In this document: positions 2,162-22,091 of the stretch, in pieces
Numbering within the stretch: position 1 is the stretch's first letter
Layout: the number at the start of each line of letters is the position of its first letter
Assembly (NCBI RefSeq): GCF_013087525.1
Contig: NZ_JABFCS010000001.1
Coordinates: 4,030,001-4,094,000 of the forward strand
DNA: 64,000 bases
DNA from: Ramlibacter montanisoli
GTDB lineage: Bacteria > Pseudomonadota > Gammaproteobacteria > Burkholderiales > Burkholderiaceae_C
Direction of reading: 5' to 3'
Program-made: the position numbers and the translations under genes
Notes under the pieces: model-generated
The model's input: the letters and a program-made list of their open reading frames with translations, nothing else
Databases searched by the model: none
What the model was told of the DNA's origin: nothing

Positions 2162-2352
2162 GCGTGCAGGATAGGCTTCGCCGGCTGTTGCGTACATGAG
2201 ATGTTTCAACGCGTGGAAGAACGGCGGCGCGCCCGCCCGGCGGTCCGCGGCAGCCGACACATCTCTTTACGACACATTGTGAAGGCGGTCGGCGGCGCGC
2301 ATGATGAGCCTGGCAGGCGCGCTTCGCGCCCTACAGGGACAGGAGGAGGAAG

Positions 2353-2945
2353 ATGCAGATCAGCGACTTGATCGCCCGCACCGGCGGGATCGATTCCATT
2401 GCCCGCGAACTGGGCATCCCGCAGGAGCAGGCCGCGTCCGGGGCCGAAGCCCTGCTGCCCGCCATCTCGGCGGTTTCCAGAAGACCGCGCAGGCGCAGGG
2501 CGGCGCCGGCGGCCTGGGTGACCTGCTCGGGCAACTGGGCGGCGGCGGCCTGCTGGAGCAGGTGCTGGCGCCGCAGCCCACCGACGTGAGCCAGGGCGAC
2601 GCCGTGCTCGGGGAGATCTTCGGCTCGCGCGACGTGAGCCGCACGGTGGCGCAGAGCGCATCGGCGCAGTCGGGGCTGGATCCGTCCCTGCTGAAGAAGA
2701 TGCTGCCCCTGCTCGCCATGGTGGTGGGCGGGCTGATGTCCAAGCAGGGTGGCGCGGCGACCCCGGCGCCGGCCGGCGGCGGCGGTCTCGGCGGCATCCT
2801 GGGCAGCGTGTTCGGAGGGGGCGGCCAGGCGCCGTCCGCTGGCGGGCTCGGTGGACTGGGTGGCCTCGGCAGCCTGCTCGACGCGAACGGCGACGGCAAC
2901 GCGCTGGACGACATCCTGCGCATGGCCGGCAAGGCCGTGCGCTAG
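2353..2945 (+). CDS. DUF937 (YidB-like) protein, frameshifted
   Basis: The start at 2353 follows a strong purine-rich ribosome site (AGGAGGAGGAAG). The N-terminus, MQISDLIARTGGIDSIAREL, is typical of DUF937 proteins. After about residue 39 the frame breaks near 2474: reading continues in another frame as LGGFQKTAQAQ, and restoring one C (ATCCTC in place of ATCTC) joins the two. The C-terminal half is glycine-rich (several GGLGG runs) and ends LDDILRMAGKAVR, like YidB. The molecular function of this family is not established. The break is most likely a sequence error. Confidence 0.75.
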
Positions 2946-2973
2946 CCCGGCGCGGAAGCGGCCGAGGAAAGCG

Positions 2974-2989
2974 GCCCGCTCACGCGGGC
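2974..2989 (+). terminator. GC hairpin between convergent genes
   Basis: GCCCGC-TCAC-GCGGGC forms a six-pair stem followed by TTCTTCC. It lies just after the DUF937 gene and overlaps the stop codon of the convergent ChaN gene. It could end transcription from the left. The T-tract is interrupted, so this is only a candidate. Confidence 0.3.
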
Positions 2990-3720
2990 TTCTTCCTGCC
3001 GTCCATTTCCTTCTTGAGCTCGGCGCAGTAGTCGCGCCCGGTGTCCTGCGCCGGCAGCACCACCGCCGTCGCGCGCAGGCGCTGCGGCAGGTGCACCGGC
3101 ACGCCCAGCTCCGGCAGCACGTGGCCGCGCCCGGCGATCAGCACCACCTGCTTGCCCGGCTGGCTGGCCCCTGAGATGGTCTGCGCCATCGCGAAGTCGC
3201 GCGCCACCTGCACGCGCACCATCGGCGTGACCTGGTGCTCCGGCAGCATGTCGCAATGGCCGGTGCGGATGTTCTGCTGGTGCCGCTGGATCGAGGACGC
3301 CGGCAGCAGCGCGTCCAGCGTGACGTCGCCCATGGCCTTGCGCATCTCGTCGCGCGGCAGGTTGGCCCCCATCACGGGCACGCCGGCCCGCACCGCGGCC
3401 ATGATGGCGGGCGCGTAGCGTTCCCACTGCCAGCCGCTGCCTGCGCGGTTCCAGTTCAGCGCCTTGCGCACTTCTTCCTCGCTGGCCGTGGGCGGCAGGC
3501 CCGCGGTGCTGTGGCCGCGTTCGGCCATCTCCAGCGTGACTGCCGTGAGCGTGCCGCGCTCGGCGAGCGTGTCCACCCACTTCTTCTGCATGCGAGGGTG
3601 GTCCTTCGCGTCGTGCTGTTCGCCGATCAGGACGGCGTCGACTCCGGAGACATCGGGCACGGGCGGCAGGGTGCTGCAACCGGCGAGCAGCAGGGCGGCG
3701 ACGGCGAAGTGAAAGCGCAT
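2980..3720 (-). CDS. ChaN family lipoprotein
   Basis: A 246-residue protein starting with ATG at 3720. It has a lipoprotein signal (MRFHFAVAALLLAGCSTLPP) with the lipobox Cys at residue 15. The body carries the ChaN/EreA-like pattern: an early IGEQHDAKDH motif, then LEMAERG, and a late LIAGRGHVLPELGVP segment containing the second conserved His. ChaN-type proteins are membrane-anchored and have been reported to bind heme or iron; here that role is inferred from family only. The frame is intact and the gene ends 35 bases from the convergent DUF937 gene. Confidence 0.8.
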   Translation of the reverse strand: MRFHFAVAALLLAGCSTLPPVPDVSGVDAVLIGEQHDAKDHPRMQKKWVDTLAERGTLTAVTLEMAERGHSTAGLPPTASEEEVRKALNWNRAGSGWQWERYAPAIMAAVRAGVPVMGANLPRDEMRKAMGDVTLDALLPASSIQRHQQNIRTGHCDMLPEHQVTPMVRVQVARDFAMAQTISGASQPGKQVVLIAGRGHVLPELGVPVHLPQRLRATAVVLPAQDTGRDYCAELKKEMDGRKKPA

Positions 3721-3779
3721 GCACCGATACTAAGCGCTCCGCGCCGGCGCCCGGGGACGCGCGCCGTCACGTATCTCCC

Positions 3780-4853
3780 ATGTCGCTTCGCTTCTTCCTG
3801 CGGGCTTCGGCCACGCTGTTGCTGGCCCTGGCCGCCGCCCTGCTGTGCGTGTGGCTGCGCACGCCGCTGCCCTGGATGATCGGTCCGCTGCTGGCCACGT
3901 CCATCGTTTCGGTGCTGGGCGCGCCCACGCGCAGCTGGCCGCCACTGCGCAACGCGGCGCAGTGGCTGATCGGCACCGCCCTGGGCCTGTACTTCACGCC
4001 GCAGGTCACTGGCCTGGTGGCCAGCCTGTGGTGGGCCATCCTGCTGGCGATCGCCTGGGCGCTGGGGCTGGGCTGGGGCTTCGGTCGCTTCCTCCATGCG
4101 CGGCATGCGCAGCGCATCGGCGGCAGCGAGCGCGCGCAGTGGGCGACGACCTATTTCGCGGGCGCGATCGGCGGCGCCTCGGAGATGACGCTGCTGGCCG
4201 AGCGCGAGCGGGGCCGCAGCGACCTGGTGGCGGCGGCGCACAGCGTGCGCCTGGTGATCGTCACGCTGGTGATCCCCTTCGCCTTCCAGTACTCCGGCCT
4301 GCACGGCCTCGATCCCTCGCTGCCCGGTGCGCGCACGGTGCAACCGGCAGGGCTGGCGCTGCTGCTGGCGGCGACGGCCGCCGGCGGCTGGCTGATGGTG
4401 CGCACCGGGCGCGCGAATCCCTGGTTCATGGGCGCGCTGATCGCCGCCATGGGCGTGACCATGGCCGGCCAGGAACTTTCCGCCATGCCGACGCCGCTGA
4501 CCAATGCGGCCCAGTTGCTGATCGGCGTGAGCCTGGGGGTGCGTTTCCAGCGCCAGTTCCTGCATGCGGCGCCGCGCTGGCTGCTGGACGTGGCCCTGGG
4601 AACGGTGGGCATGATCCTGCTGTGCGCCGGCTTCGCCTTCCTGCTGGCCTGGGGAACCCGGCTGCATCCGGCGACGCTCATCCTGGGGACTTCGCCGGGC
4701 GGTATTGCCGAGATGGCCATCACGGCCAAGGTGCTTCAGCTGGGGGTGCCGGTGGTGACCGCTTTCCAGGTCTGCCGGCTGGTGGCGGTGCTCGTCCTGG
4801 TGGAGCCGCTCTTTCGCTGGGTCGGGCCGGGCAAGGCCGGCCCGCCAGCCTGA
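3780..4853 (+). CDS. AbrB-type integral membrane protein
   Basis: A 357-residue, very hydrophobic protein with about ten predicted membrane segments arranged as two related halves. Each half has a glycine-rich signature: PWMIGPLLATSIVS with QWLIGTALGLYFTP in the first, and PWFMGALIAAMGVTMAG with QLLIGVSLGVRF in the second. This is the duplicated AbrB/PF05145 family. Many databases label it 'ammonia monooxygenase', which is a misnomer because it lacks Amo features. The role is unknown; regulation or transport has been proposed. The start at 3780 is the first ATG after the divergent ChaN start, leaving 59 bases for both promoters. Confidence 0.8.
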   Translation: MSLRFFLRASATLLLALAAALLCVWLRTPLPWMIGPLLATSIVSVLGAPTRSWPPLRNAAQWLIGTALGLYFTPQVTGLVASLWWAILLAIAWALGLGWGFGRFLHARHAQRIGGSERAQWATTYFAGAIGGASEMTLLAERERGRSDLVAAAHSVRLVIVTLVIPFAFQYSGLHGLDPSLPGARTVQPAGLALLLAATAAGGWLMVRTGRANPWFMGALIAAMGVTMAGQELSAMPTPLTNAAQLLIGVSLGVRFQRQFLHAAPRWLLDVALGTVGMILLCAGFAFLLAWGTRLHPATLILGTSPGGIAEMAITAKVLQLGVPVVTAFQVCRLVAVLVLVEPLFRWVGPGKAGPPA

Positions 4854-4860
4854 TGGCCGG

Positions 4861-5132
4861 TCAGTGGATGACCAGCGGGTTCTGGGCCAGCTCGGCGTAG
4901 CCGTCCAGCGTCGCTTCGACTTCTTCCTGGGTCGGGGTGTTCAGCTGCCAGGCGTTGATCTGGCGCTGGAAGGCGTCCGCCCACATGCCGTCGAGGTAGA
5001 CCTCCTTGTTCGACCGCTTGTCCACGATCTCGAACCCGTGCCGCACGATCTGGGGTGCGCCTCGCCCTCCGCAGGCTCGTTGGCCTGCAGGTGCACCACC
5101 ACGAAAGAATCGGAGTCATAAAGCATTTGCAT
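4861..5132 (-). CDS. DUF3567 small protein, frameshifted
   Basis: A protein of about 90 residues starting MQMLYDSDSFVVVHLQANEP at 5132, with a good ribosome site (AAAGGAA) upstream. The frame breaks near 5051: adding one C to a four-C run joins EGEAHP to QIVRHGFEIVDKRSNKEVYLDG, which continues to the stop at 4861. This conserved short protein is typical of Burkholderiales and has no assigned function. It is convergent with the AbrB-type gene, which ends only 7 bases away. The break fits the window-wide homopolymer-loss pattern. Confidence 0.8.
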
Positions 5133-5252
5133 GATCTATTCCTTTTGCCTCTAGCTGGCTGCGATGGGCTCCGAATCAAGTGTGGCACTCAAACGTGTGC
5201 ACCGCAGGCACCGGCCGGATTGGCCATGTCCCCAATCTAGGTGGGGGAGCGT

Positions 5253-6277
5253 TCAGGACCTGTCGGTTGAAGCCCAGCGCTGATCGACCGAGCCACCGTC
5301 CGGGTTTGTCAGACGCAGGCGCACGGGGGCGTAATCCTTGCCGGGAGCCAGCCAGAGCTCCACCTTCTGGTCGAACTCCTTGCGCGGCAGCCTTTCCAGC
5401 TTGAGGGCGCGCACGCGGCCGCCCGGGAGGTCGAGGTCCTCCTCGGAAACGACCCGGAAGATCCAGTCTTCCGCCTCGCGCGTGCTGGCGGTCGGGATCG
5501 CGATCTGGGTGCCCGGGCCGAAGCGCGCGGGTTCGCCGGCCGCCAGCATGGACAGCTGGACGACGACCGACAGGCGGTCCTGCATGCCGGGCGCGAGCGG
5601 CGCATCGGGCCGGTTGTTGCTGAAGGTCACCCTTCGGCGCGTGCGGTCGAAGTGCGTGGCCTGCTCCCCGCGCGACTTGTCCGAGAAGCGGCCGGGGGCC
5701 AGTCCTCCTCGGTGATCTCGCCCACGCTGTGCTGCACCCGATCGCGCACGCCCGGGGCGGACAGCGAGAGCTTCAGGTCGTATTGCTGGCCGTTGTGCCA
5801 CCAGTCCAGCCGCGCCTCGCCGCCCAGGCTGAAGCCGCGGGTGCGCACCGTGACCTCGTAGCGCATGACGGAAGGTTGCGGCACGCCGATGACCTTGGGC
5901 ACGAAGGGGGTGGCGGCGGTCGCCGGCGCCGCGTCGCTCGCGGCAAGGGCCGGTGGCGCGGCGGCCGCTGGCGATTCGGCGGGAACTGGGGCCGCGGCGG
6001 CTTGCGGCGTCTCGGCTTCCTTCTTCGGGGCGGGCGCCGGCGGCGCCTTGCGTGCCACGGCGGCCGGCGGCGGCTGCACGGGCGGCGCGGGGCTGGCCTC
6101 GGCTTGCGCGCGCGGCGGCGCGACGCTGATGGTGCGGGTGGTGAAGGTCTGCACCCAGCGATCGCGCGTCGGCGTCCAGGCGCGCCAGCCGCCCTGCAGC
6201 AGCGCCAGGTGGGCGGCGAGCACCAGCCCGGCGAGCGGCCACAGCCGCCGCCACAGGGGCGCCGGCGCCTTGTTCAT
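5253..6277 (-). CDS. DUF3108 periplasmic protein, frameshifted
   Basis: It starts with ATG at 6277, sharing four bases (ATGA) with the upstream IclR stop, so the two are probably co-translated. An N-terminal membrane or signal segment (about residues 9-28) is followed by a long Ala/Pro-rich linker and then a DUF3108-type beta domain, from SVMRYEVTVRTRGFSLGGEA to the end, LRLTNPDGGSVDQRWAST. The frame shifts near 5698: one more G in the GG before ACTGG joins GEITEEG to LAPGRFSDKSRG. DUF3108 proteins are predicted periplasmic proteins of unknown function. Confidence 0.8.
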
Positions 6278-7050
6278 CCGCGGTGGCCCAGGTCGGAGGA
6301 CAGCTGCGCGGCGGCCGCCCGCAGCGGCCTTTCCACCGCGCCGCCCCACTCGGCGTCGAAGGTGCCGGCCGGGCCCAGCGCCACCATGCCCAGCGCCATG
6401 TGGCCGTCGGAATCGAACACCGGCACGCAGAAGCCGACGATGCCGGGCAGCAGCGTGTCCACCACGCGCGAGGCGCCGCGCTGGCGCACCGCGTCGAGCA
6501 GGGCGCGCGCTTCCGTCAGGGTGCCGGGCAGGTCGGTGCGGCCCTGCTTCTGCCCGCGCGCGATCTCCTCCTTCAGCATCGGCGTGATCGCTTCCTTGGG
6601 CGCATGCGCCGCGAAGCACAGGCCGGTGGCGGAGGTGAGCAGAGGCATCACGTCGCCCAGCCGCAGGTTCACAGTGACGGCGGAAGGCGACTCTTCCCAG
6701 TGCACGATGGTGGGCCCGTGGTTGCCCCACACGGCCAGCGCGAGGGTGTGGCCGATCTCCTCCATCAGCAAGGCGATGCGTTCGCGCGCCAGCTTCACGG
6801 CGTCCAGCCGCGAGAGCGAGGCCAGCCCGAGCTTCAGTGCGGCGGGCCCGAGGTCGTAGCGCGTGCTGGCCGCGTCCTGCACCACCAGCTGCAGGCGCTG
6901 GAAGCTCACGAGGTAGCGGTGCGCCTTGGCGGCGCTCATGTTGGCGGCGCGCGCCAGGTCGCGCAGCATCAAGGGCCCGGCGGCATCGCCCAGCACCTGC
7001 AGCAGGCCGAATCCCACTTCCACCGACTGGATTCCGGCGCGTTCCTTCAT
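6274..7050 (-). CDS. IclR family transcriptional regulator
   Basis: 258 residues. The N-terminal winged helix-turn-helix (about 5-65) includes QSVEVGFGLLQVLGDA and MLRDLARAANMSAAKAHRYL. The C-terminal IclR effector domain contains SATGLCFAAHAP and ends with a conserved-type PVFDSDGHMALGMVALGPAG stretch. It is transcribed away from a fumarylacetoacetase-family gene, and the 99-base gap between them is the natural operator. The protein probably controls that hydrolase and itself. The effector is unknown, although IclR proteins commonly sense aromatic or small organic acids. The frame is intact. Confidence 0.9.
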   Translation of the reverse strand: MKERAGIQSVEVGFGLLQVLGDAAGPLMLRDLARAANMSAAKAHRYLVSFQRLQLVVQDAASTRYDLGPAALKLGLASLSRLDAVKLARERIALLMEEIGHTLALAVWGNHGPTIVHWEESPSAVTVNLRLGDVMPLLTSATGLCFAAHAPKEAITPMLKEEIARGQKQGRTDLPGTLTEARALLDAVRQRGASRVVDTLLPGIVGFCVPVFDSDGHMALGMVALGPAGTFDAEWGGAVERPLRAAAAQLSSDLGHRG

Positions 7051-7149
7051 GCGCCGGACCTTCCGATAGAATTACGATTAGGTAAATTCATTTCACGATG
7101 CGTAATGGTCCGCGCGGACTCTAGCGCATCCGGATTCCGGGGTCCATCG
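7051..7149. promoter_or_regulatory. Divergent IclR / FAH-hydrolase control region
   Basis: This 99-base gap separates the two divergent starts. Its centre, 7062-7107, is distinctly AT-rich against the GC-rich surroundings. It contains a separated inverted repeat, ATTACG at 7071-7076 and CGTAAT at 7101-7106. Position and composition suit an IclR-type operator with overlapping promoters. No convincing -35/-10 pair was recognised. Confidence 0.45.
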
Positions 7150-8160
7150 ATGAAATTGGCAACGTACAGGGACGGCTCGCGCGACGGGCAACTGGTGGTG
7201 GTGTCGCGCGACCTGCAGTCGGCGCATTATGCGACCGGCATCGCCGGCCGGCTGCAGCAGGTGCTGGACGACTGGAACTTCCTCGCCCCGCAATTGCAGG
7301 ACCTGTACGAGACGCTGAACAACGGCAAGGCGCGCCATGCCTTCCCCTTCGACCCGCGGCAGTGCATGGCGCCGCTGCCGCGCGCCTACCAGTGGGCCGA
7401 CGGCTCCGCCTACATCAACCACGTGGAGCTGGTGCGCGCGGCGCGCAATGCCGAAGTGCCGAAAAGCTTTTACGAGGACCCGCTGATGTACCAGGGCGGC
7501 AGCGACGACTTCCTGGGCCCGACCGAGGATGCGAAGTTCCTCAGCGAGGATTGGGGCATCGACTTCGAGGCGGAAGTGGCAGTGGTCACCGGCGACGTGC
7601 CCATGGGCGCGTCGCCCGACCAGGCCCTCGACGGCGTGCGGCTGGTCATGATCGCCAACGACTGGAGCCTGCGCAACCTGATCCCCAACGAGCTGGCCAA
7701 GGGCTTCGGCTTCTTCCAGAGCAAGCCGGCGACCGCCTTCGGCCCGGTGGCCGTGACGCCGGACGAACTGGGCGAGGCCTGGGACGGCGGGCGCATCCAC
7801 CTGGTGCTGCAAAGCAGCTGGAACGGCCGCAAGGTCGGCATGTGCGAGGCCGGCCCCGACATGACCTTCCACTTCGGCCAGCTGATCGCGCACATCTGCA
7901 AGACGCGCAACGTGCGCGCCGGCTCCATCGTCGGCTCCGGCACGGTCAGCAACAAGGGCGTGGAGGGCGCCGGCGGCAAGACCGAGTGGCCCAAGGGCTA
8001 CAGCTGCATCGCCGAGAAGCGCGCGATCGAGACCCTCCAGGACGGCAAGCCCTCCACCGAGTTCATGCGCTTCGGCGACACGATCCGCATCGAGATGAAG
8101 GGCAAGGACGGGCAGAGCGTGTTCGGGGTGATCGAGCAGAAGGTCGTCGGGCCCGCGTGA
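7150..8160 (+). CDS. Fumarylacetoacetate hydrolase family protein
   Basis: 336 residues from ATG at 7150. The C-terminal two thirds have FAH-fold signatures. Metal-site acidic residues lie in IDFEAEVAVVTGDVPMG and the D of MIANDWSLRNLIP, followed by KGFGFFQSKPATAFGPVAVTP and GSIVGSGTVSNKG. The family cleaves or decarboxylates 2-oxo-acid-type products of aromatic ring cleavage. The exact substrate cannot be read here; the N-terminal region (MKLATYRDGSRDGQLVVVS) matches the common bacterial subgroup. The divergent IclR regulator supports inducible catabolic use. Longer in-frame upstream codons run through the IclR gene and are not used. Confidence 0.88.
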   Translation: MKLATYRDGSRDGQLVVVSRDLQSAHYATGIAGRLQQVLDDWNFLAPQLQDLYETLNNGKARHAFPFDPRQCMAPLPRAYQWADGSAYINHVELVRAARNAEVPKSFYEDPLMYQGGSDDFLGPTEDAKFLSEDWGIDFEAEVAVVTGDVPMGASPDQALDGVRLVMIANDWSLRNLIPNELAKGFGFFQSKPATAFGPVAVTPDELGEAWDGGRIHLVLQSSWNGRKVGMCEAGPDMTFHFGQLIAHICKTRNVRAGSIVGSGTVSNKGVEGAGGKTEWPKGYSCIAEKRAIETLQDGKPSTEFMRFGDTIRIEMKGKDGQSVFGVIEQKVVGPA

Positions 8161-8321
8161 TGCGGGGCCGTCGGGCGCCGACCCTTGCTGCCGAGTTGGC
8201 CGTGGCCCGGCATCGGCCTTGCCCCGTGTGACTGATTGCAAGTCCCTTGCCAATCTGCTAAATATCACCTCGACGCGGAGCGCGCGCCCGCCGGCGCCCG
8301 ACTCCTGGCAGGAGGGATTCC

Positions 8322-9807
8322 ATGGAGCCATCCGGCTACCTCGGCAGGCTCGGTTCCGAAGGGAGCCCGGCCTTCCACGCAGGCTGGTGGCGCCGCAGCG
8401 CGGCGCGGCCGGATGCCGCAAGCGCTAGGCCGTTCGACCTTCTGCGCTGGTTCTCCATCGCCAGCCTGTTGGCGCTGCTTCCCTTGGCTGCCGCCACGGG
8501 AGCGCTGATTTCGCATTTCGTGGCCGAGCAGATGCTGCGCCGGGATGCACTGCTGACCGCGCAATTCCTGCAGAACAGCATCCTCGTGGAGTCGGCGGGG
8601 ATCGGCGGCTTCAGCGTGCTGCCCTATCTGGATGCCCGGGTCGCGCTCCCGGGCATGGAGGCCGACGCGGTGGCTCGTGCCCGCAGCGAGGTCTTCAAGC
8701 ACCTGGAGCTCATTCCGGACGCGCTGCTGACCAACGTGTACGCACGCGACCGCATGATCATCTGGTCCACCAGCAAGAATCTGGTCGGCACCTTTTCGAC
8801 CGACGACAGCGAACTGGACGAAGCCTTCGGCGGGCTCGTGGATGTGGCGCGGCATTTCTACAGCCACGAGATCTCCGTCCGGCATGACACGCAGTTCCGC
8901 ATGCCTCCCAAGGAGTTCTTCGTCGAGAACTACGTGCCGCTGCGGGACGGGCGCGGCCAGGTGGTGGCCGTGGTGGAGGTCTACAAGGAGCCCGGCGGGA
9001 CGATGGCCGCGATCCGCGCGGGGCAGGTCCTGGTATGGGCCACGACGATGGCGGGCGGCATCCTGGTGTACGTGGCCTTCTTCGCCATCGTCCGGCGGGG
9101 CAGCCGCCTGGTGCGACAGCAGCAGCGGCAGTTGGTCGACGCGGAGTCACAGCTGTTCGCCGGCGAGCTGGCGACCGCGCTCGCCCACAGCCTGCGCAAC
9201 CCGCTGTCCGGCATGCGCAACAGCGCGGAGCTGGCGCTGTGCAGCGAGGACATCCTGGTGCGCAAGAATGCCCAGGACATCATCACCCAGGTGGATTTCC
9301 TGTCGCAATGGATCCGCGAGCTGCTGCTGTACTCGCGGCCGCTCAGCGGTGAGACGGAACCGGTGGACCTGCAGGCTGTCCTGCACAGCGTGCTGGCCTC
9401 GTTCGGACCCACCTTCGAGCGCCTCGGCATCCGCGTCGTCTGGGAACGAGAGGACGTCCGCCGCGTCCTGGCGCGAGGCAATACCGCGCTGGCGCGGCAG
9501 GCGATCCACAGCGTCATCTCGAACGCCCTGGAGGCCATGGCTGCCGGCGGCGAGATGAGGATCGAGCTGCGCGAGACCGGTGACCGGTCCGGCGTGGACC
9601 TCACCATCAGCGACACGGGCGTGGGCATGTCGGCGCAGCAGCTGGCATCGGCCTTCCGGCCGTTCCACACGAGCAAGCCGAACGGCCTGGGTGTCGGTCT
9701 GCCCATGCTGCGGCGCGCCATGGAGCGATTCGGGGGTCGGTCACGCTGTCGAGCGTGGAGAACGCCGGCACGCGGGTGCGCCTGCATTTTCGAAGCCAGG
9801 AGACGAC

Positions 9808-9811
<4 letters not shown>
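8322..9811 (+). CDS. Membrane sensor histidine kinase, frameshifted near 3' end
   Basis: Two membrane segments (about residues 43-65 and 235-257) flank an extracytoplasmic sensor domain of roughly 170 residues that was not recognised as a named family. The dimerisation/phosphoacceptor box is [18 protein letters not shown] with His289. The catalytic domain has an N box ([13 protein letters not shown]), a G1 box (ISDTGVGMS) and a G2-like box (GLGVGLPML). The frame breaks at 9735-9739, where a five-G run should be six; restored, the protein ends [18 protein letters not shown] plus seven residues, and its TGA overlaps the regulator ATG. The signal is unknown; the copper-enzyme neighbours suggest a redox or metal cue. 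Confidence 0.85.
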
Positions 9812-11257
<1,446 letters not shown>

Positions 11258-11312: not shown

Positions 11313-11495
11313 ACGAACGGGGAATCACCCCCGAAGCTGGGGAAGCCGGCCCGCTGGCGCGGGCGGTCACCGGCCTGGCACGGGCCGCACTTGCCAGCGC
11401 CGGCAGCCCGTGCGCCCGCGCACGCGATCGGGGTACGGATCCTGCTCTTGTCCGGGCCGGCGCAGTTTCGCGCTGTTTCCGCACAGGAGATGCCC

Positions 11496-13317
11496 ATGCT
11501 TGCAAGGAGACACTTTCTCGGTTTCGCCGGAGGAACCGGTGCCGGGATGCTGTGGCCCGCGGCGCTGCTGCCCCGGGGGCCAGGGCGCAGTCGGCGCCGT
11601 TGCTGGACCCGATGAAGCAGCCGCGTTTCAGCAACCCACTGCCCAACCCGCTCGCGCCGGACCGTGTCTTCCGGCCCACCGGGATCGACCCCGCCACCGG
11701 GATGCCGCTGTTCGACATCCACGTCAAGCAGATCCGGCACGACGCCGGCCTGATCGACCCGGCCAGCGGAAAGCGGCTGCGCCACCGGGCCTGGGGCTAC
11801 GGGACGGCGCTGCAGCCCGCGATCTGCCCGGGCTACTCCTTCGACCTGCGCCAGGGACAGCCGGTGAAGGTCCGCTTCTCCAACGAGCTGTATGGCGTCA
11901 CGTATCCGCCTGCCGTGCCCGTGGACCAGACCATCCACTGGGCCGATCCCCTCAACGGCGGCAATCCCCCAACCGACCCTATACCGGGCCGGTGCCGCTG
12001 GTCGCGCATCAGCACGGCGGCGACACCCATTTCCTGAGCGACGGCCTGCCGGATGCCTGGGCGACCCCGGGCAACGACATCCGCGGCCGGCTGTTCACCC
12101 CGTCTACACCTTCGACAACCGTCAGGAAGCGGCGCAGCTCTGGTACCACGACCACACCGCCGGCCTGACCCGCCTGAACGTCTACATGGGCCTGGCGGGC
12201 AACTACTTCATCCGCGACGCCAACGAGGAAGCCCTGAGCCTGCCCAAGCCACCCTACGAGGTGGCGCTGCTGATCCAGGACCGCAGCTTCCTCGCCGACG
12301 GCGAGCTGTTTTACGCCCACCAGGACCCGGCCGCCCCCGGGCTGCCCAACCCGACCCACCTGCCGGAGAACTTCGGCGACGTGGTGCTCGTCAACGGGGT
12401 CGCCTGGCCGCTGCTGGAAGTGGAGCCGCGCAAGTACCGCTTCCGGGTGCTGAACGGCTCGGACTCGCGGGTGTACGACATGAGCCTGTCGAACCGCATG
12501 CCCTTCATCCAGATCGGCTCCGACCTCGGCTTGCTGAACGCGCCGGTGGAACTGCAGGTCCTGAGCCTCGCGCCCGGCGAGCGCGCGGACATCATCCTGG
12601 ATTTCGCCCGGATGGAGGGCCAGACCATCGTGATCGGCAACAGCGCGGCGGCCCCCTACCCGGACGGCGATCCGGTCGATGCCGCCACCGCGGGCCAGGT
12701 GATGGCCTTCCGCGTGAACCAGCCGCTGTCCCGCGTGCCGGACCGGCCGCTGCCGTCCAACCTGCGGCCCCTGTCCGGCCCGGTCCCTGCGATCACGCGT
12801 GCCATCCGCACGCGCAAGATCCTCCTGTTCGAGGGCACCGACGCCCGCGGCCGGCTGCAGACCATGGCCGGCATCGTCGACTCCAGCCGGCCGGCGCTGA
12901 ACGGCACGCTGGTGTTCACGGACCCGATCACCGAGAACCCGCAGCTGGGCGACACCGAGGTCTGGGAGTTCTACAACAGCAGCGCCGACGCGCACCCGAT
13001 CCACATGCACCTGGTCGACTTCCGCATCCTCGGCCGGCAGAAGTTCAAGGGCACCATCACGCCCAAGACCAACAGCGATGGCTCGGAAGGCGGCGTGCTG
13101 GACGAGGCGAGCATCAATCTGCTGGGCAAGGCGCGCCCGCCCTCCCGGGAGGAGGCCGGGAAGAAGGACACCGCCAAGATGTTCCCGGGCGAGGTGACCC
13201 GCGTGGCGGCCAGGTTCACGCGCCCGGGCGAGTACGTCTACCACTGCCACATCCTCTCGCACGAGGACCACCAGATGATGCGGCCCTACTTCGTGGGCCA
13301 GCTCCCCCGGGCGCTGA
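11496..13317 (+). CDS. Tat-exported multicopper oxidase, several frameshifts
   Basis: The start at 11496 is preferred over 11490 because AGGAG lies six bases before it. A twin-arginine signal ([15 protein letters not shown]) directs folded export. The copper motifs are all present across frames: [40 protein letters not shown] and [13 protein letters not shown], the last giving the type-1 Cys and a likely axial Met, as in CotA/laccase-like enzymes. Frames break near 11575 (G6 to G5), 11983 (C4 to C3) and 12099 (C5 to C4). The last frame stays open to 13532, overlapping the SCO gene. I place the end at the TGA at 13315-13317, which needs one more indel near 13304-13308, so the 3' end is uncertain. 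Confidence 0.8.
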
Positions 13318-13380
13318 GGCGCCGCAGCTCACGCGCACCGGAGGGCTCCATGCGAACCCCTTCCTTCCTTCGGAGGCATC

Positions 13381-14019
13381 ATGCCGATTCACTCGATCTG
13401 CGCGCAGGCGGCCGCGTGCTGGGCGGCCTGCTGCCTCGCGGCGGCGCCGCTCCCGGCGGGCGCCACCCAGCCGCCCCACCCCGGCCACGGCGGGCACACC
13501 CACGCTGGCGCCGAGCCCGCGCCGGCCGCTGAGCGCAAGCTCGCGCGGTACCGCCTGCCCGACCTGCACCTCGTGCGCTCGGACGGATCCAGGACCGCAT
13601 TCCCGCAGGCCCTCGACGACGGCCGCCCGGTGGCGCTGAACTTCATCTACACGTCGTGCACGGCCATCTGCCCGGTCCTGAGCCACAGCTTTGCGGAGTT
13701 CCAGCGGCGCCTGGGGCCGGACCGCGAGCGGGTGCACATGGTGTCCATCTCGATCGATCCGGAGCAGGACACGCCCCGGCGGCTCGCCGAGTACGCGGCG
13801 CACTTCGAGCCGGGCCCCCAGTGGGAGTTCTACACCGGCAGCGCGGAGGCCAGCGCGAGCCTGCAGAGGGCCTTCCAGGCCTGGTTCGGAGGCAAGATGC
13901 ACCACCGGCCGGTGACCTTCCTGCGGGCGGCGCCCGGCCAGCCCTGGGTGCGGCTGGAGGGCTTCATCACGCCGGACGAACTCCTGGTGGAATACCGCCG
14001 GCTGGTCGTACCGCGCTGA
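13381..14019 (+). CDS. SCO1/SenC family copper chaperone
   Basis: 212 residues with an N-terminal signal segment (about 1-27) and a His-rich stretch after cleavage (HPGHGGHTHAG). The thioredoxin-like domain carries the copper-binding CxxxC in IYTSCTAICPVLSHS, then VSISIDPEQDTP, and a late His (KMHHRPVTFLR) at the expected third-ligand region. SCO proteins deliver copper to, or keep reduced, the CuA site of oxidases. Here the immediate partner is probably the multicopper oxidase upstream. The frame is intact, and the next gene starts 15 bases downstream. Confidence 0.88.
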   Translation: MPIHSICAQAAACWAACCLAAAPLPAGATQPPHPGHGGHTHAGAEPAPAAERKLARYRLPDLHLVRSDGSRTAFPQALDDGRPVALNFIYTSCTAICPVLSHSFAEFQRRLGPDRERVHMVSISIDPEQDTPRRLAEYAAHFEPGPQWEFYTGSAEASASLQRAFQAWFGGKMHHRPVTFLRAAPGQPWVRLEGFITPDELLVEYRRLVVPR

Positions 14020-14034: not shown

Positions 14035-15625
14035 ATGCGTGCGACCTGGCGCCGCGCCACCGTCGTTCTACTGTGCTGGTTCGCCGTGGCTGCGGCGCCT
14101 TCGGCCGGGGCCGACCTGGCCCTGGGCGAGACGCTCTACCTCCAGGGGCGGCGCAGCGACGGAACGCCGGTGGTGGCGCGGCGCAGGGGCGGCCCCGTGC
14201 TGGCCCCGGCGGAGGCGGCCTGCGTGAGTTGCCACCGGCGCAGCGCCCTCGGCGGCACCGAGGGGCGCAGCTACATGCCCGCGATCACGGCCGGGTCGCT
14301 GCTGCAGGCGATGGCGCCCGGCACGGGGCCCTCCGCCACCGGCGCCGGCCGACCGCCGTACACGGAAGCCTCGCTGCTGCGCGCGCTCACTGCCGGGATC
14401 GACCCGGCCGGGCGCACGCTGGATTACCTGATGCCCCGCTACGCGCTGCGGCCGGAGGAGGTCGGGCGCTGCTGCACTACCTGGGCGAGCAGGCCCGGCC
14501 GGGCGGCGCCTTGCCGGACAACGGCGCGATCCACGTGGCCACCGTCATCGCCCCGGGTGCGACGCAGCAGGGCAGGCGGGCGATGGTCGACGTGCTGCAG
14601 GCCTGCCTCGCCGAACCGGGCGCCGGCGCGCAGCCGAAGGGCGCCCGGCGCAAGCTCGCGGTGGAAATGAGCATGAGCGCGCAGCGGCCGTGGCGGCTGC
14701 ACGTCTGGGAACTTCACGGGCCGGAGGCGCAGTGGGATGCGCAGCTGGCCCGGCACGCCGAACGGCAACCGGTGTTCGCGCTGGTCGGCGGGCTCGGGGC
14801 GGCGGACTGGTCGCCGGTCCATGGCTTCTGCGAAAGAGCGAAGCTGCCCTGCCTGTTCCCGCACCTGGAAGCGCCGGTGGACCGGCCGGCGGACTTCTAT
14901 TCGCTCTACCTGAGCCGCGGCGTCCTGCTGGAGGCCGCCTTGGTCGCCGAGCACCTGGCCGGCGCGCCCGCGGGCGGGCGGGTGCTGCAGGTCCTGCGTG
15001 CCGCCGACCGCGCCGCGAGCAGGGCGGCGCAAGCGCTGCGGGCCGGCCTGCCGCCCACGGTCGGCCACTGGAGCGTCATGCTCGCGGACGAAGGCCAGGG
15101 GCCGATCGCCCTGCCGCACGACATGGCCGCAGGCGATGCGCTGGTGCTGTGGCTGCGACCGCAGGACCTGGGGCGCCTGGATGCGGGTGCCGCGCCGGCG
15201 GCGCAGGTCTACGTCTCGGCAACGCTGGCGGGCGGTGACGATCTGCCCTTGCCGGCCGCCTGGAAAGCAGGCGCCCTGGTGGCCTATCCTTCGAGCTGCC
15301 GCAGGCGCGCTCGGCGCGCATGCAGCAGTTGCGGGGCTGGCTGCGCGAGCAGGGCCTTGCTCCGGCGAACGAGCGCATCCAGGCGGACGCCCACCTGGCG
15401 TGCACGGCCCTGCGGACGGGCCTGCAGGACGCGCAGCCCCATCTCGGGCGGGAGTACCTGGTCGAGAAGCTGGAGTCGAATCTCGAGCGCTGGTCCGCGA
15501 CCGGCCTGTATCCGGGCCTGGCGCTCGGCGCGGGGCAGCGGTTCGCGTCCAAGGCCGGGTACCTGGTGCGGTTCGAACCGCGGTCGGGAGGACTTGCGCC
15601 CTCGGCGCAGCGCTCTGCGCCTTAG
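14035..15625 (+). CDS. Cytochrome c fused to periplasmic-binding-protein-like domain, frameshifted
   Basis: A signal peptide (about residues 1-25) is followed by a c-type heme domain with CVSCH (Cys63, Cys66, His67) and a likely Met ligand in DYLMPRYAL. From about residue 155 a long alpha/beta domain resembles type-1 periplasmic ligand-binding proteins (Peripla_BP_6, as in amino-acid ABC receptors): VATVIAPGATQQGRRA, PVFALVGGLGAADW, PCLFPHLEAP and DFYSLYLSRGV. It ends with GYLVRFEPRSGG. One G is missing near 14471 and one T near 15288. No permease or ATPase gene is adjacent, so a sensing or electron-transfer role is more likely than uptake. The function is unproven. Confidence 0.75.
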
Positions 15626-17396: not shown

Positions 17397-18029
17397 TCAG
17401 CCCGGCAGCAGCACCTTGTCCACGACGTGGATCACGCCGTTGGACTGGTAGACGTCCGCGGTGGTCACGACCGACATGTTGCCCTTCGCGTCCACGATCA
17501 CGACGTCCTTGCCGCGCAGGGTGGCCGTGAGCGTGCCGCCGCTGGCCGTCTTGAGCATGGCCTTGCCGCCGCCCGCCTGGATCTGCTGCGCCAGCGCCGC
17601 CGCATCGACGCGCCCCGGCACCACGTGGTAGGTCAGCACCTGCGTGAGCGTGCCCTTGTTCTCCGGCTTGAGCAGCGTGTCGACCGTGCCGGCCGGCAGC
17701 ATGGAGAACGCGCTGTTGGTCGGCGCGAACACCGTGAACGGGCCGCTGCCCTTGAGCGTGTCGACCAGGCCGGCGGCCTTCACGGCGGCCACCAGCGTGG
17801 TGTGGTCGCGCGAGTTCACCGCGTTGTCGATGATGTCCCTGGTCGGGTACATGGCCGCGCCGCCCACCGTCTTGGTGGCGCCGGATGCGCCCATGATGGC
17901 GGCGTTGGTGCCCGCCACGGAAGCGTTCATGTCGATGGCCACGCCGCGGCCATAGCCTTCGGCGAGGGCGGCAGTGGTGGTGGCGGCAAGCAGCGATGCG
18001 GCGCAGGCCGCGATGAGATGACGGTGCAT
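17397..18029 (-). CDS. Secreted fasciclin (FAS1) domain protein
   Basis: 210 residues with a Sec signal (about 1-23, ending TTTAALA) and one FAS1 domain. The two FAS1 boxes are visible: H1 in GPFTVFAPTNSAFSMLPAG and H2/YH in LTYHVVPGRVDAAAL. The domain closes with SNGVIHVVDKVLLPG. FAS1 proteins mediate adhesion or surface interactions in the envelope. It is convergent with the OPT gene, only four bases apart, and followed by a 108-base gap before the trehalose operon's 3' end. The frame is intact. Confidence 0.92.
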   Translation of the reverse strand: MHRHLIAACAASLLAATTTAALAEGYGRGVAIDMNASVAGTNAAIMGASGATKTVGGAAMYPTRDIIDNAVNSRDHTTLVAAVKAAGLVDTLKGSGPFTVFAPTNSAFSMLPAGTVDTLLKPENKGTLTQVLTYHVVPGRVDAAALAQQIQAGGGKAMLKTASGGTLTATLRGKDVVIVDAKGNMSVVTTADVYQSNGVIHVVDKVLLPG

Positions 18030-18137: not shown

Positions 18138-19541
18138 TTACAGGCGCAGCCAGGAGGTGCCCTTTTCCTCCGCCTTGGCCTCGGCCAATGCGGCCAGGAA
18201 GGTGTCGCACCACCAGTGCACGTCGTACTCGCGCACGGTGCGCATGAGGGCCTGGTGGCGGTGGCGCCGCTCCTCCACCGGCATCTGCAGCGCCAGCTGG
18301 ATGGCGGTGGCCGTGCCTTCGGTGTCGTAGGGATTCACCAGCAGCGCTTCCTTCAGCTGTTCGGCCGCGCCGGCGAAGCGCGAGAGCACCAGCACGCCCG
18401 GGTCTTCCGCTTCCTGCGCCGCAAGGAACTCCTTGGCGACCAGGTTCATGCCGTCGCGCAGCGGCGTGACCAGCGCGACCCGACTGGCGCGGTATAGGCC
18501 GGGCAGGCGCGCCCGCGCCACGGTGCGGTGGATGTAGCGCACCGGCATCCAGTCCAGGTCGCCGAAGTTGCCGTTGATGGAGCCGCACAGGCTTTCCAGC
18601 TCGTGCAGGATGTCCGTGTAGGCGCTGACGTTCTCGCGGCTGGGTGAGGCGATCTGGATCAGCGTCGCGCTGGAACGCAGGTCCGGGTTCTTGGTGAGGA
18701 ACTCGCGGAAGGCGCGCATGCGCTGCGGCAGGCCCTTCGAATAATCGAGCCGGTCCACGCCGACCAGCAGCTTGCGCCGCGAGTACTCGCGCTTCATGCG
18801 CTCGTACATCTCCAGCGCCTCCGGCCCGTGGGCCAGGCCGGTGAATTCCTCGACGTCGATTCCGATCGGGTAGGCGCCGGCGTGCACGGTGCGGCCGAAG
18901 GCGCGCCAGCGGTTGTCGTCCAGCGGCTGCGCGTGCGCCTCGCTTTCGACGTAGCGCGCGAAGTGTTCCAGGTCGGTGCGACTCTGGAAGCCGACCAGGT
19001 CATAGGCGAAGAGGGCGCGGATCAGCCAGTCGTGGCCGGGGATGGCAGCCAGGATCAGCGGCGGCGGCAGCGGGATGTGCAGGAAGAAGCCGATGCGCTG
19101 CTTGCAGCCCAGCGCGCGCAGTTCCGCGGCCAGCGGGATCAGGTGGTAGTCGTGCACCCAGATGATGTCGTCGGAGCGCAGGAAGGGCAGCAGCTTGCGC
19201 GCGAACAGCTGGTTCACGCGCCGGTAGCCGCTGATGTAGCCCGCGTCGAAGTCCGCGAGGTCGAGCCGGTAATGGAACACCGGCCACAGCACGCCGTTGG
19301 AGTAGCCCAGGTAGAACGCGTCGTGATCCGCCTGCGACAGGTCCACCATCACCAGCTTCACCGGGCCGGCCTGCTCGACGTGGACCTCGTCGATCTCGCT
19401 GTGGTCGACGATCTTGCCGCTCCATCCGAACCACACCCCGCCGGTGTTGTTCAAGACCTCGGCCAGCGCAACCGCGAGGCCGCCGGCCGCGGTCTTGCGC
19501 GGGTCCGCGATGCGGTTGGAGACGACGACCAGGCGGCTCAA
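18138..19541 (-). CDS. otsA: Trehalose-6-phosphate synthase
   Basis: 467 residues, a GT-B glycosyltransferase (family GT20) making trehalose-6-phosphate from a nucleotide-glucose and glucose-6-phosphate in the cytoplasm. Signatures include RLVVVSNRI at the N-terminus, GGVWFGWSG, the substrate loop [30 protein letters not shown] for the sugar nucleotide, and [18 protein letters not shown] near the C-terminus. It is the last gene of an otsB - GH15 - otsA operon, starting 10 bases after the GH15 stop. The product supports osmotic and desiccation tolerance. The frame is intact and of normal length. Confidence 0.96.
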
Positions 19542-19551
19542 GCAGGCTCCT

Positions 19552-21354
19552 TCAGATCACCGTGTCCCAGGGCGCGGACAGGCGGACGGCGGCGTTGATC
19601 GTACCGACCATCGAGTAGGTCTGAGGGAAGTTGCCCCACATTTCACCGGTAACCGGATGCGTATCCTCCGACAGCAGGCCCACGTGGTTGCGGCTCTTGA
19701 GCATCACCTCGAAGATCTCGCGCGCCTGCGCCTTGCGGCCGATGCGCGCCAGTGCGTCGATGCGCCAGAAGGTGCAGATGTTGAACGCGGTCTCGGGCTT
19801 GCCGAAGTCGTCGGCCGCCTCGTAGCGCCGCATGTAGGGACCGTCGCACAGCGACTTCTCCAGCGCATCGACGGTGGCGATGAAGCGCGCGTCGTTCGGG
19901 TCGATCATGTTGACTTCCGCCATCAGCAGCGCGCTGGCGTCGAGGTCGCGCCCGCCGAAGCTCTCCGCGAAGGCCTGGCGCTCCTCGCTCCAGGACTCCT
20001 TGAGGATGCGCGCGCGGATCTCGTCGGCGCGTTCACGCCAGTAGCGGATGCGATCCGGCAGGCCCAGTGCCGCCGCGATCTTGGCCAGCCGGTCGCAGGC
20101 CGCCCAGCTCATGAGGGCCGAGGAGGTGTGCACGCGCGCGCGGGTGCGCAGCTCCCACATGCCGGCGTCGGGCGTGTCGTAGATCTTGAAGGCCTGCTCG
20201 CCCACCGCTTCCATGTGCGCGAACTCCGCGCGGCCCGCGCGCTTGAGGAGGCGGTGGTCGTGAAAGGCCTGGGCCGCCCCCAGCAGGATGTTGCCGTACA
20301 CGTCGTGCTGGAAGTGCTCCTGCGCCTGGTTGCCCACGCGCACCGGCCCCATGCCGCGGTAGCCGGGCAGGTGGTCCAGGATGAACTCCGGCAGCTTCTC
20401 CTCCTGGCCGATGCCGTACAGAGGCTGGATGTGGCCGCCGCCGGAGCGGATCACCACGTTCATCAGCCAGCGCAGGTACTCCTCCATGGTCGCCACTTCG
20501 GAGATCGAATTGAGCGCGCGCACCACGAAGAAGGCGTCGCGCAGCCAGCAGTAGCGGTAGTCCCAGTTGCGGCCGCTGCCCGGCGCCTCCGGGATGCTGG
20601 TGGTCATGGCGGCGACGATCGCACCGGTGTCCTCGAACAGCGAGAGCTTCAGCGTGATGGCCGCGCGGATCACGGCCTCCTGCCACTCCAGCGGCAGCGA
20701 CAGCGCGCGCGTCCACTGCTTCCAGTAGGCCACCGTCTCCTGCTCGAACAGGCGCGCCGTCTCCTCGATGCCGCTGCTGAGGGTCTCGTCCGGGCCCATG
20801 ATGAAGTTCATCGGCCGGTCGACCACGAAGAAGGTTTCCGCCAGCACGTAGGAGATCGGCGCGTCGGTGTTGATGCGCACGGTGCTGTTGCCGGCCACGT
20901 AGCGGATGTGCGTGCTGCCCTGCGTGACGCTGGGCTTGGCGCGGCCCCAGTCGAAGCGCGGGCGCAGCAGCACGCGCATGCGCGGCGAGCCGGAGAGCAC
21001 CTTCACCCGCCGCACCATGGTCAGCGGCCGGAACGTGCGGCCGCGGCTCCAGAAGCGCGGCGCCAGGTCCGTGACCTCGATGCCCTGGCCCTTGCGGTCG
21101 TACATGCGCGTGCGCAGCACGGCGGTGTTGGGCTCGTAGAACTGCTCGCTGCGGTCGTAGTCCTCCAGCTCGAAGGCCCAGAGGCTGCCGTTCTCGCTGG
21201 GATCCAGGATCGCGTTGAAGACGGGGTCGCCGTCGAAGCGCGGCAGGCAGCACCAGACGATGCGGGCCTGGCGGTCGATCAACGCGCTGTAGGCGCAGTT
21301 GCCGATCATGCCGACCTGCAGGGTGGAGGGTGTGGGGTTCATCTTGTCGTTCAT
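19552..21354 (-). CDS. Glycoside hydrolase family 15 protein
   Basis: 600 residues from ATG at 21354, which shares ATGA with the otsB stop. An N-terminal beta-sandwich-like part (IGNCAYSALIDRQARIVWCC, RFDGDPVFNAILD) is followed by an (alpha/alpha)6 barrel. Catalytic-region motifs include GSGRNWDYRYCWLRDAFF, GHIQPLYGIGQEEKL and TFWRIDALARIGR. GH15 covers glucoamylases and the trehalases known in actinobacteria. Sitting between otsB and otsA, it may hydrolyse trehalose or a related alpha-glucan, but substrate specificity cannot be read from sequence. No signal peptide, so cytoplasmic. The frame is intact. Confidence 0.9.
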   Translation of the reverse strand: MNDKMNPTPSTLQVGMIGNCAYSALIDRQARIVWCCLPRFDGDPVFNAILDPSENGSLWAFELEDYDRSEQFYEPNTAVLRTRMYDRKGQGIEVTDLAPRFWSRGRTFRPLTMVRRVKVLSGSPRMRVLLRPRFDWGRAKPSVTQGSTHIRYVAGNSTVRINTDAPISYVLAETFFVVDRPMNFIMGPDETLSSGIEETARLFEQETVAYWKQWTRALSLPLEWQEAVIRAAITLKLSLFEDTGAIVAAMTTSIPEAPGSGRNWDYRYCWLRDAFFVVRALNSISEVATMEEYLRWLMNVVIRSGGGHIQPLYGIGQEEKLPEFILDHLPGYRGMGPVRVGNQAQEHFQHDVYGNILLGAAQAFHDHRLLKRAGRAEFAHMEAVGEQAFKIYDTPDAGMWELRTRARVHTSSALMSWAACDRLAKIAAALGLPDRIRYWRERADEIRARILKESWSEERQAFAESFGGRDLDASALLMAEVNMIDPNDARFIATVDALEKSLCDGPYMRRYEAADDFGKPETAFNICTFWRIDALARIGRKAQAREIFEVMLKSRNHVGLLSEDTHPVTGEMWGNFPQTYSMVGTINAAVRLSAPWDTVI

Positions 21355-22091
21355 CCGGTTTTCGTCAGGCGCGCGGCCAGGGCCGCTTCCAGTTCGAGCC
21401 GCAGGGCCGTGGGATCGGGGATGCGCTGCCAGGCCGCCGTCGCGCCCTCGCCCACCTTGATGCCGAGGCCGCCGAGGCGCTGCACCGTGGAGAAGCCGAC
21501 CTCGTCGGTGCAGTCGTCGCCGATGAACACCGGCGTGCGGCCGGCGAAGGGCGGCTCCGCCAGGAAGGATTCGATCGCGCGGCCCTTGCTCGAGCCACCG
21601 GGCTTGGCCTCGGCCACCATCTTCCCGCGCTGCAGGGTGAGACCCGGGGACGCGTCCACCGCTTCCTGCATGGCGCGCAGGCACAGCGCCTCGAGTTCGG
21701 GCCGCTGCCGGTAGTGCAGCGCCAGCGAGCCGCGCTTGTTCTCGACCAGCAGCCCGGTGTGCTCGGCGGCCAGCGCGCGGGCCGCCGCCTCGACCTGGTC
21801 GAGCGGGTGGGTGTCAAGCAGGTGGATCTGGCCGTCGGCGCCACGGCGCTCGGCGCCGTGCACGCCGGCCACGGCCATCTGCAGCGGGCTGAGGAAATCG
21901 TCGATCTGCACGATGGGCCGGCCGGAGATCACCGCGACCGCGCCCTGCAGGTAGTCATGGAGGTCTTCCAGCACCACGAGCAGCGGTTCGGGCACGTGCA
22001 CCGCGTGCGGCTGCGGTGCGATGTCCACCATGGTCCCGTCGAAATCCAGGAACAGGGCGCAGGAGGGATAGAGGATCTCCACGAGCGTCAT
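21351..22091 (-). CDS. otsB: Trehalose-6-phosphate phosphatase
   Basis: 246 residues, a HAD-superfamily phosphatase that completes trehalose synthesis. The nucleophile motif is LFLDFDGTMVDIAPQP (DxDxT). Motif II is VAVISGRPI, and the metal motif near the C-terminus is VFIGDDCTDEVGF. First gene of the operon; its TGA overlaps the GH15 start by four bases. Its promoter would lie in the 91-base gap 22092-22182, where I recognise no clear motif. The frame is intact. Confidence 0.95.
   Translation of the reverse strand: MTLVEILYPSCALFLDFDGTMVDIAPQPHAVHVPEPLLVVLEDLHDYLQGAVAVISGRPIVQIDDFLSPLQMAVAGVHGAERRGADGQIHLLDTHPLDQVEAAARALAAEHTGLLVENKRGSLALHYRQRPELEALCLRAMQEAVDASPGLTLQRGKMVAEAKPGGSSKGRAIESFLAEPPFAGRTPVFIGDDCTDEVGFSTVQRLGGLGIKVGEGATAAWQRIPDPTALRLELEAALAARLTKTG

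Follow-up and report, generated by a model that had tools for sequence, protein, structure and literature searches.

The window analysed here, a stretch of 64,000 nucleotides from Ramlibacter montanisoli (contig NZ_JABFCS010000001.1, positions 4,030,001 to 4,094,000), carries three tightly spaced plus-strand genes in the order CotA-type multicopper oxidase (MCO), SCO1/SenC copper chaperone (SCO) and a fusion of a cytochrome c domain to a receptor fold. The oxidase gene (approximately 11490 to 13320, limits estimated; Cu-oxidase_2, E 7.6e-22) extends over several frames; by eye, a Tat-like signal is seen at about 11500, and all four copper-binding motifs are readable across the frames. The SCO gene (13381 to 14019; Pfam SCO1-SenC, E 1.2e-19) ends 15 bases upstream of the fusion gene. 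Just 5′ of the oxidase, positions 8322 to 11257 encode, again over several frames, a histidine kinase followed by a regulator with receiver, sigma-54 and HTH_8 domains.

Directly 3′ of the fusion gene lies a gene of the OPT oligopeptide transporter family (PF03169; 15650 to 17392, start estimated), which is likewise in pieces. We excluded it from the cluster because R. alkalitolerans has another gene there, on the opposite strand, as judged from ORF translations. Between 11490 and 17392 the oxidase, fusion and OPT genes are each spread over several frames, and half-matches elsewhere in the genome suggest that the assembly contains many erroneous indels. Further downstream, the minus strand encodes a fasciclin-domain protein (17397 to 18029) and, from 18138 to 22091, a putative trehalose-phosphate synthase, a GH15-type glucoamylase-like protein and a trehalose-phosphatase, judged from the look of their translations.

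Reading frames and intactness of the fusion gene

An initial annotation of this DNA had proposed that a single exported protein combines a heme c domain, with CxxCH at residues 63–67, and a Peripla_BP_6-like receptor fold; it had also suspected a frame problem and placed the stop at 15625. To follow the gene through its frames, we searched the R. montanisoli genome with a family profile of 518 positions built from 79 relatives. This returned three co-linear pieces, at 14116–14463, 14469–15299 and 15287–15589, which cover profile positions 4–125, 128–409 and 406–506 (E 1.8e-29, 1.9e-82 and 1.6e-31 respectively) and therefore represent one gene running through three frames. The first piece (14035 to 14463, plus strand) comprises a signal-peptide-like N-terminus, recognised by eye as an export signal, and the cytochrome c domain; in the frame from 14035 the CxxCH motif does occupy residues 63–67 (codons 14221–14235), and further on the sequence YLMPRY includes the likely distal methionine (codon 14431–14433). 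The second piece (14469 to 15299, plus strand, other frame) encodes the bulk of the predicted type 1 periplasmic-binding domain, including an invariant cysteine pair, and the third (15287 to 15625, plus strand, third frame) encodes the end of this domain and the stop codon. The suspected frame problem thus corresponds to two frame changes, near 14465 and near 15290, and the third frame stops at 15625 as had been stated. Searched against Pfam and NCBIfam at E values up to 1, the window pieces gave no match to a cytochrome or receptor family.

The fusion is intact and in a single frame in 79 of the 80 related loci, the exception being L033. We therefore rejected a chance heme motif, and the single open frame of the relatives likewise disfavours programmed frameshifting as the cause of the breaks. 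Since the neighbouring MCO and other genes of the assembly are also split (adjacent half-matches appeared in the Peripla_BP_6 and BPD_transp_2 searches, and the oxidase lies in several frames), we suggest that the breaks in the window gene are assembly indels. The alternative, that the window copy is a decaying pseudogene, appears improbable. It would be in keeping with the two frame changes, with the long end branch of the window copy in the tree of the middle piece (0.89) and with the alteration of three invariant positions of the 79-row alignment (67, 80 and 92, all in the cytochrome part); against it stand the split neighbours, which suggest assembly indels, and the retention of 42 of the 45 invariant positions. 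The window copy deviates at 22 of the 127 positions conserved in at least 72 rows of the family alignment, and is identical to the R. alkalitolerans ortholog at 295 of 520 aligned positions.

Domain architecture and conserved residues

The fusion of cytochrome c to a receptor fold is real. Pfam Cytochrom_C was detected in 74 of the 79 family members, with one heme motif, which is present as CxxCH in the window, and Peripla_BP_6 in 16 of the 79 at E ≤ 0.01. A sequence search of the PDB matched only two dehydrogenase cytochrome subunits, over the heme part, and NCBIfam searches gave nothing useful for the fusion. To examine the remainder of the protein, we used an AlphaFold2 model of the intact R. 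alkalitolerans ortholog, obtained with the 79-row alignment (mean pLDDT 88.2, pTM 0.87). The best PDB matches of this model in Foldseek were receptors for branched-chain amino acids, fatty acids and aromatic acids (3hut, E 6.3e-13), and VIA-align superimposed model residues 171–536 on 3h5l with a Z score of 27.6 and an rmsd of 3.8 over 339 aligned residues; class C receptor domains scored just below matches of this type. As modelled, the C-terminal part adopts the type 1 periplasmic-binding fold of the Peripla_BP_6/ANF receptors. The receptor assignment of the initial annotation was thus borne out both by the Pfam profile in a subset of the relatives and by the fold matches (Z about 27), and its proposal of heme domain and receptor fold in one exported protein agrees with the profile pieces, the ortholog model and the single-frame loci.

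Invariant in all 79 rows are the heme motif, Met142 together with Pro143, Cys273, Cys280 and several tryptophans. As the heme motif and the region around W227–W232 formed part of the search patterns, the invariance of both is partly by construction; Met142, Cys273 and Cys280 lay outside the patterns. Met142 is likely to be the distal heme ligand. The loops that putatively ring the cleft, picked from predicted secondary structure rather than from coordinates, had a mean conservation of 0.80 (98 positions) vs 0.66 in the rest of the domain (261 positions), a pattern which would support a used site but points to no particular ligand.

Distribution and gene neighbourhood

One scan matched 140 relatives, 80 of which were kept as loci for the counts given here. 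According to the record titles, 47 of the 80 are from Burkholderiales; the others include Thiobacillus, Gallionellaceae, a Methylococcaceae bin and three Myxococcota bins. The gene is patchy among near relatives: counting R. montanisoli itself, it was present in three of 61 close relatives and in three of the 37 genomes searched within the genus. At the level of the order, 15 of 399 genomes (own genome included) matched at E ≤ 1e-20, five of them over no more than the first 187 profile positions, which are mainly cytochrome, and a search of the phylum at E ≤ 1e-40 found 3 of 398 genomes, namely R. montanisoli and two already in the order search. A tree of the middle piece places the window copy with Ramlibacter (100/94). 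A larger set of 10 rows (100/99) consists of this group, three Thiobacillus-type rows and the loci L074, L080 and L093, which have MofA-like and FKBP-isomerase (MofB) homologs near the fusion; the inner branch between Thiobacillus and the window's group has weak support (87/26).

The order MCO–SCO–fusion is common to R. alkalitolerans, R. monticola and one betaproteobacterial bin (L018–L020). The window oxidase is 77% identical to the R. alkalitolerans enzyme over 404 residues; the latter has all four copper motifs, and its best solved relatives are CotA laccases (E about 1e-100). Most other loci share a different core, which comprises a giant and a small protein, a pair of LolA-like proteins, the fusion and, in many cases, SCO; seed matches among the 80 loci numbered 70 for the giant, 69 for the small protein, 66 for each LolA-like seed and 58 for SCO. 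The MCO seed matched in 17 of 80 loci and a giant homolog alone was present in 60, so that one or the other accompanies the fusion in 77 loci and neither in three; since the flanks extended no further than 10 kb and the giant gene alone takes up about 8 kb, MCO genes beyond the giant would have been missed. The giant itself, a protein of 2723 amino acids with cadherin/Ig-like domains in Paraburkholderia and Cupriavidus metallidurans (L015, 18508–26679; L098), had no Pfam MCO domain and no PDB sequence match at E up to 0.1. In three named plasmids, two from Paraburkholderia and one from C. metallidurans, it lies 3′ of two multicopper oxidase genes. The Paraburkholderia locus L015 also contains a type II secretion-like gene set (1–9331) a few genes from the fusion; that this set exports the giant or the oxidases is a guess.

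SCO lies on the same strand and within 600 bases of the fusion in 37 of the 80 loci. It was not found in 22 loci, some of which end at a contig edge, and the seeds behind all SCO counts came from Ramlibacter. In the larger clusters the fusion gene is 3′ of the two LolA-like proteins (Pfam LolA_like, below cut-off), and in C. metallidurans it is followed by SCO and a PPIase, which places the fusion among possible assembly factors. These neighbours raise the possibility that the fusion helps in copper loading, i.e. that its heme gives or takes electrons so that SCO can hold copper and hand it to the MCO, with the receptor fold holding the apo-enzyme or a copper complex; the protein would then serve maturation rather than catalysis. 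The invariant Cys273 and Cys280 would fit such a role, and SCO together with the possible assembly factors makes it nearly as good an explanation as the electron relay discussed below. However, SCO is distant or not found in many loci, and no extra metal-binding cluster was seen among the conserved residues examined. On balance, we regard a copper-loading helper as possible, if rather unlikely.

Fold similarity alone would allow an ordinary ABC-transporter binding protein with an incidental heme domain. Candidate permease seeds were taken from six loci matching BPD_transp_2, as their most hydrophobic long frames (two of equal length are probably one protein); with these we found a permease homolog beside the fusion in only one locus (L059) and in none of the other 79. 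The nearest BPD_transp_2 match in the R. montanisoli genome is ∼49 kb away from the fusion. As permease homologs were so scarce, we consider a transporter receptor very improbable.

Relatives of LuxR-family response regulators were present in 40 of the 80 loci, in 26 of them within 3 kb of the fusion. These are raw counts for a common type of regulator and lend weak support to a sensory or regulated role. When parts of the window's two-component system served as seeds, L018–L020 gave no match. A ligand-gated redox sensor or carrier, as the initial annotation had proposed, in which a ligand in the cleft alters the reactivity of the heme and the resulting state is read by a partner or by a two-component system, would account for these regulators, for the histidine kinase and sigma-54-type regulator just 5′ of the window MCO, for the better conserved putative cleft-side loops and for a fold closest to amino-acid and aromatic-acid receptors. 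Yet LuxR-type regulators form a very common family, parts of the window's own system are not matched in the nearest loci, and Pfam's Peripla_BP_6 profile detects the receptor part in just 16 of 79 members. The surrounding genes, of which the initial annotation made no use, point instead to systems of multicopper oxidase and SCO copper chaperone. We judge the sensor to be unlikely.

Proposed role and relation to known systems

He et al. (2017; PMC5566968) described mofA-mofB-mofC in Leptothrix discophora and a MofC-like architecture composed of a cytochrome c domain and a periplasmic binding domain. They listed mof-type clusters in Gallionellaceae sp., L. cholodnii and Ferriphaselus sp., with strain R-1 named for its mofA-, mofB- and mofC-like cluster, as well as a distant MofC homolog, GSU1397, adjoining SCO in Geobacter sulfurreducens. 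In Rubrivivax sp. A210, mofC and a metallochaperone have likewise been reported in a putative mof operon (PMC8218464); a passage search of PMC13386937 found no mention of mofC. In the Ferriphaselus sp. R-1 locus we found SCO, a 1770-amino-acid MCO with fn3 domains and an FKBP isomerase side by side 5′ of a homolog of the fusion. The R. alkalitolerans fusion and this protein, which occupies the position of mofC, share 37% identity (214 of 584 columns, residues 21–538). The FKBP isomerase (MofB) seed matched in 9 of 80 loci and was not found in the nearest loci, L018, L019 and L020. A CotA-type MCO in place of MofA, and no MofB match in these loci, make the term 'mof operon' less apt, but not 'MofC-like', because He et al. 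(PMC5566968) also called 'mofC-like' a gene of Sideroxydans lithotrophicus which accompanies three tandem oxidase genes and a copper chaperone where MofA homologs are absent. There is little doubt that the window protein is MofC-like.

Taken as a whole, the data are best explained by a MofC-like protein that assists an exported multicopper oxidase in the periplasm, a reading that we hold to be probable. The protein would be exported by Sec and then receive its heme, and would work in the periplasm together with the MCO and SCO. Its heme may relay single electrons between the MCO, or the copper-loading chemistry of the MCO, and the periplasmic cytochrome pool, while the receptor fold would dock the partner or recognise a ligand and in this way bring heme and partner together, instead of serving an ABC transporter. 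Preference for an electron relay over a purely maturational or sensory mechanism is tentative, at somewhat less than even odds. Consistent with the accessory reading as a whole are the identity to the Ferriphaselus protein, the position of the window in one well-supported set with the MofA/MofB-bearing loci, the MCO or giant homolog in 77 and SCO in 58 of the 80 loci against a permease in one, the invariant Met142 and the better conserved putative cleft loops.

Several observations speak against this explanation. Laccase-type MCOs hand electrons to O2 themselves and need no cytochrome, which argues against a relay in its simple form. SCO was not found in 22 loci (some truncated by contig ends), the giant neighbour lacks a recognisable MCO domain or PDB match, and within the 10-row set the branch to Thiobacillus is weak. 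The response-regulator genes near many copies would also fit a sensory role, and the gene is present in only three of the 37 genomes searched in its own genus. Moreover, He et al. (PMC5566968) noted that the functions of MofC-like proteins are yet to be elucidated.

A more speculative version, to which we give a low probability, is a receptor-gated cytochrome: closure of the receptor fold on a ligand (a metal chelate, a phenolic compound or a partner peptide) would switch electron exchange between heme and MCO, and might be reported to a nearby two-component system. If this were true, a receptor fold of the transporter type would have come to work as a redox gate in the oxidation of metals or phenols outside the cell, present in Ramlibacter in the compact CotA-type MCO–SCO–MofC form. 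Irrespective of mechanism, MofC-like proteins adjoin enzymes that have been proposed to oxidize manganese and iron in bacteria, and the fusion, with 140 relatives matched in a single scan, represents a coherent family in which a cysteine pair and a heme-side methionine are invariant in the 79 aligned rows and the putative cleft loops are better conserved. The three-gene CotA-type version is short enough for expression and testing in a laboratory host.

Compared with known systems, the fusion resembles type 1 solute-binding proteins of branched-chain and aromatic-acid ABC transporters (3hut, 3h5l, 4f8j) in the fold of residues 169–538. It differs from them in sequence (7–16% identity in the rows shown), in the added heme c and in the absence of permease genes beside 79 of the 80 loci. 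The closest solved relative of the R. alkalitolerans neighbour oxidase is the Bacillus CotA laccase, and CotA of B. pumilus WH4 is reported to oxidize Mn(II) (PMC3618234). In contrast to Bacillus CotA, the oxidase here is proteobacterial, has a Tat-like signal (by eye) and is paired with SCO and a MofC-like protein; Mn activity is only a candidate property. With the MofC-like proteins of L. discophora, Gallionellaceae and Ferriphaselus R-1 the fusion has in common a cytochrome c and a periplasmic binding domain, an adjoining MCO and often SCO, sequence homology having been measured to the Ferriphaselus R-1 protein and L. discophora MofC having been compared by description. The architecture and gene company of the fusion are therefore already in print. 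In the literature searched we found no description of a short CotA-type oxidase followed by SCO and MofC in Ramlibacter. The MCO of the mof operon is the giant MofA and that of Ramlibacter is of the short CotA type; the Ramlibacter neighbourhood is a minor variant of the known arrangement.
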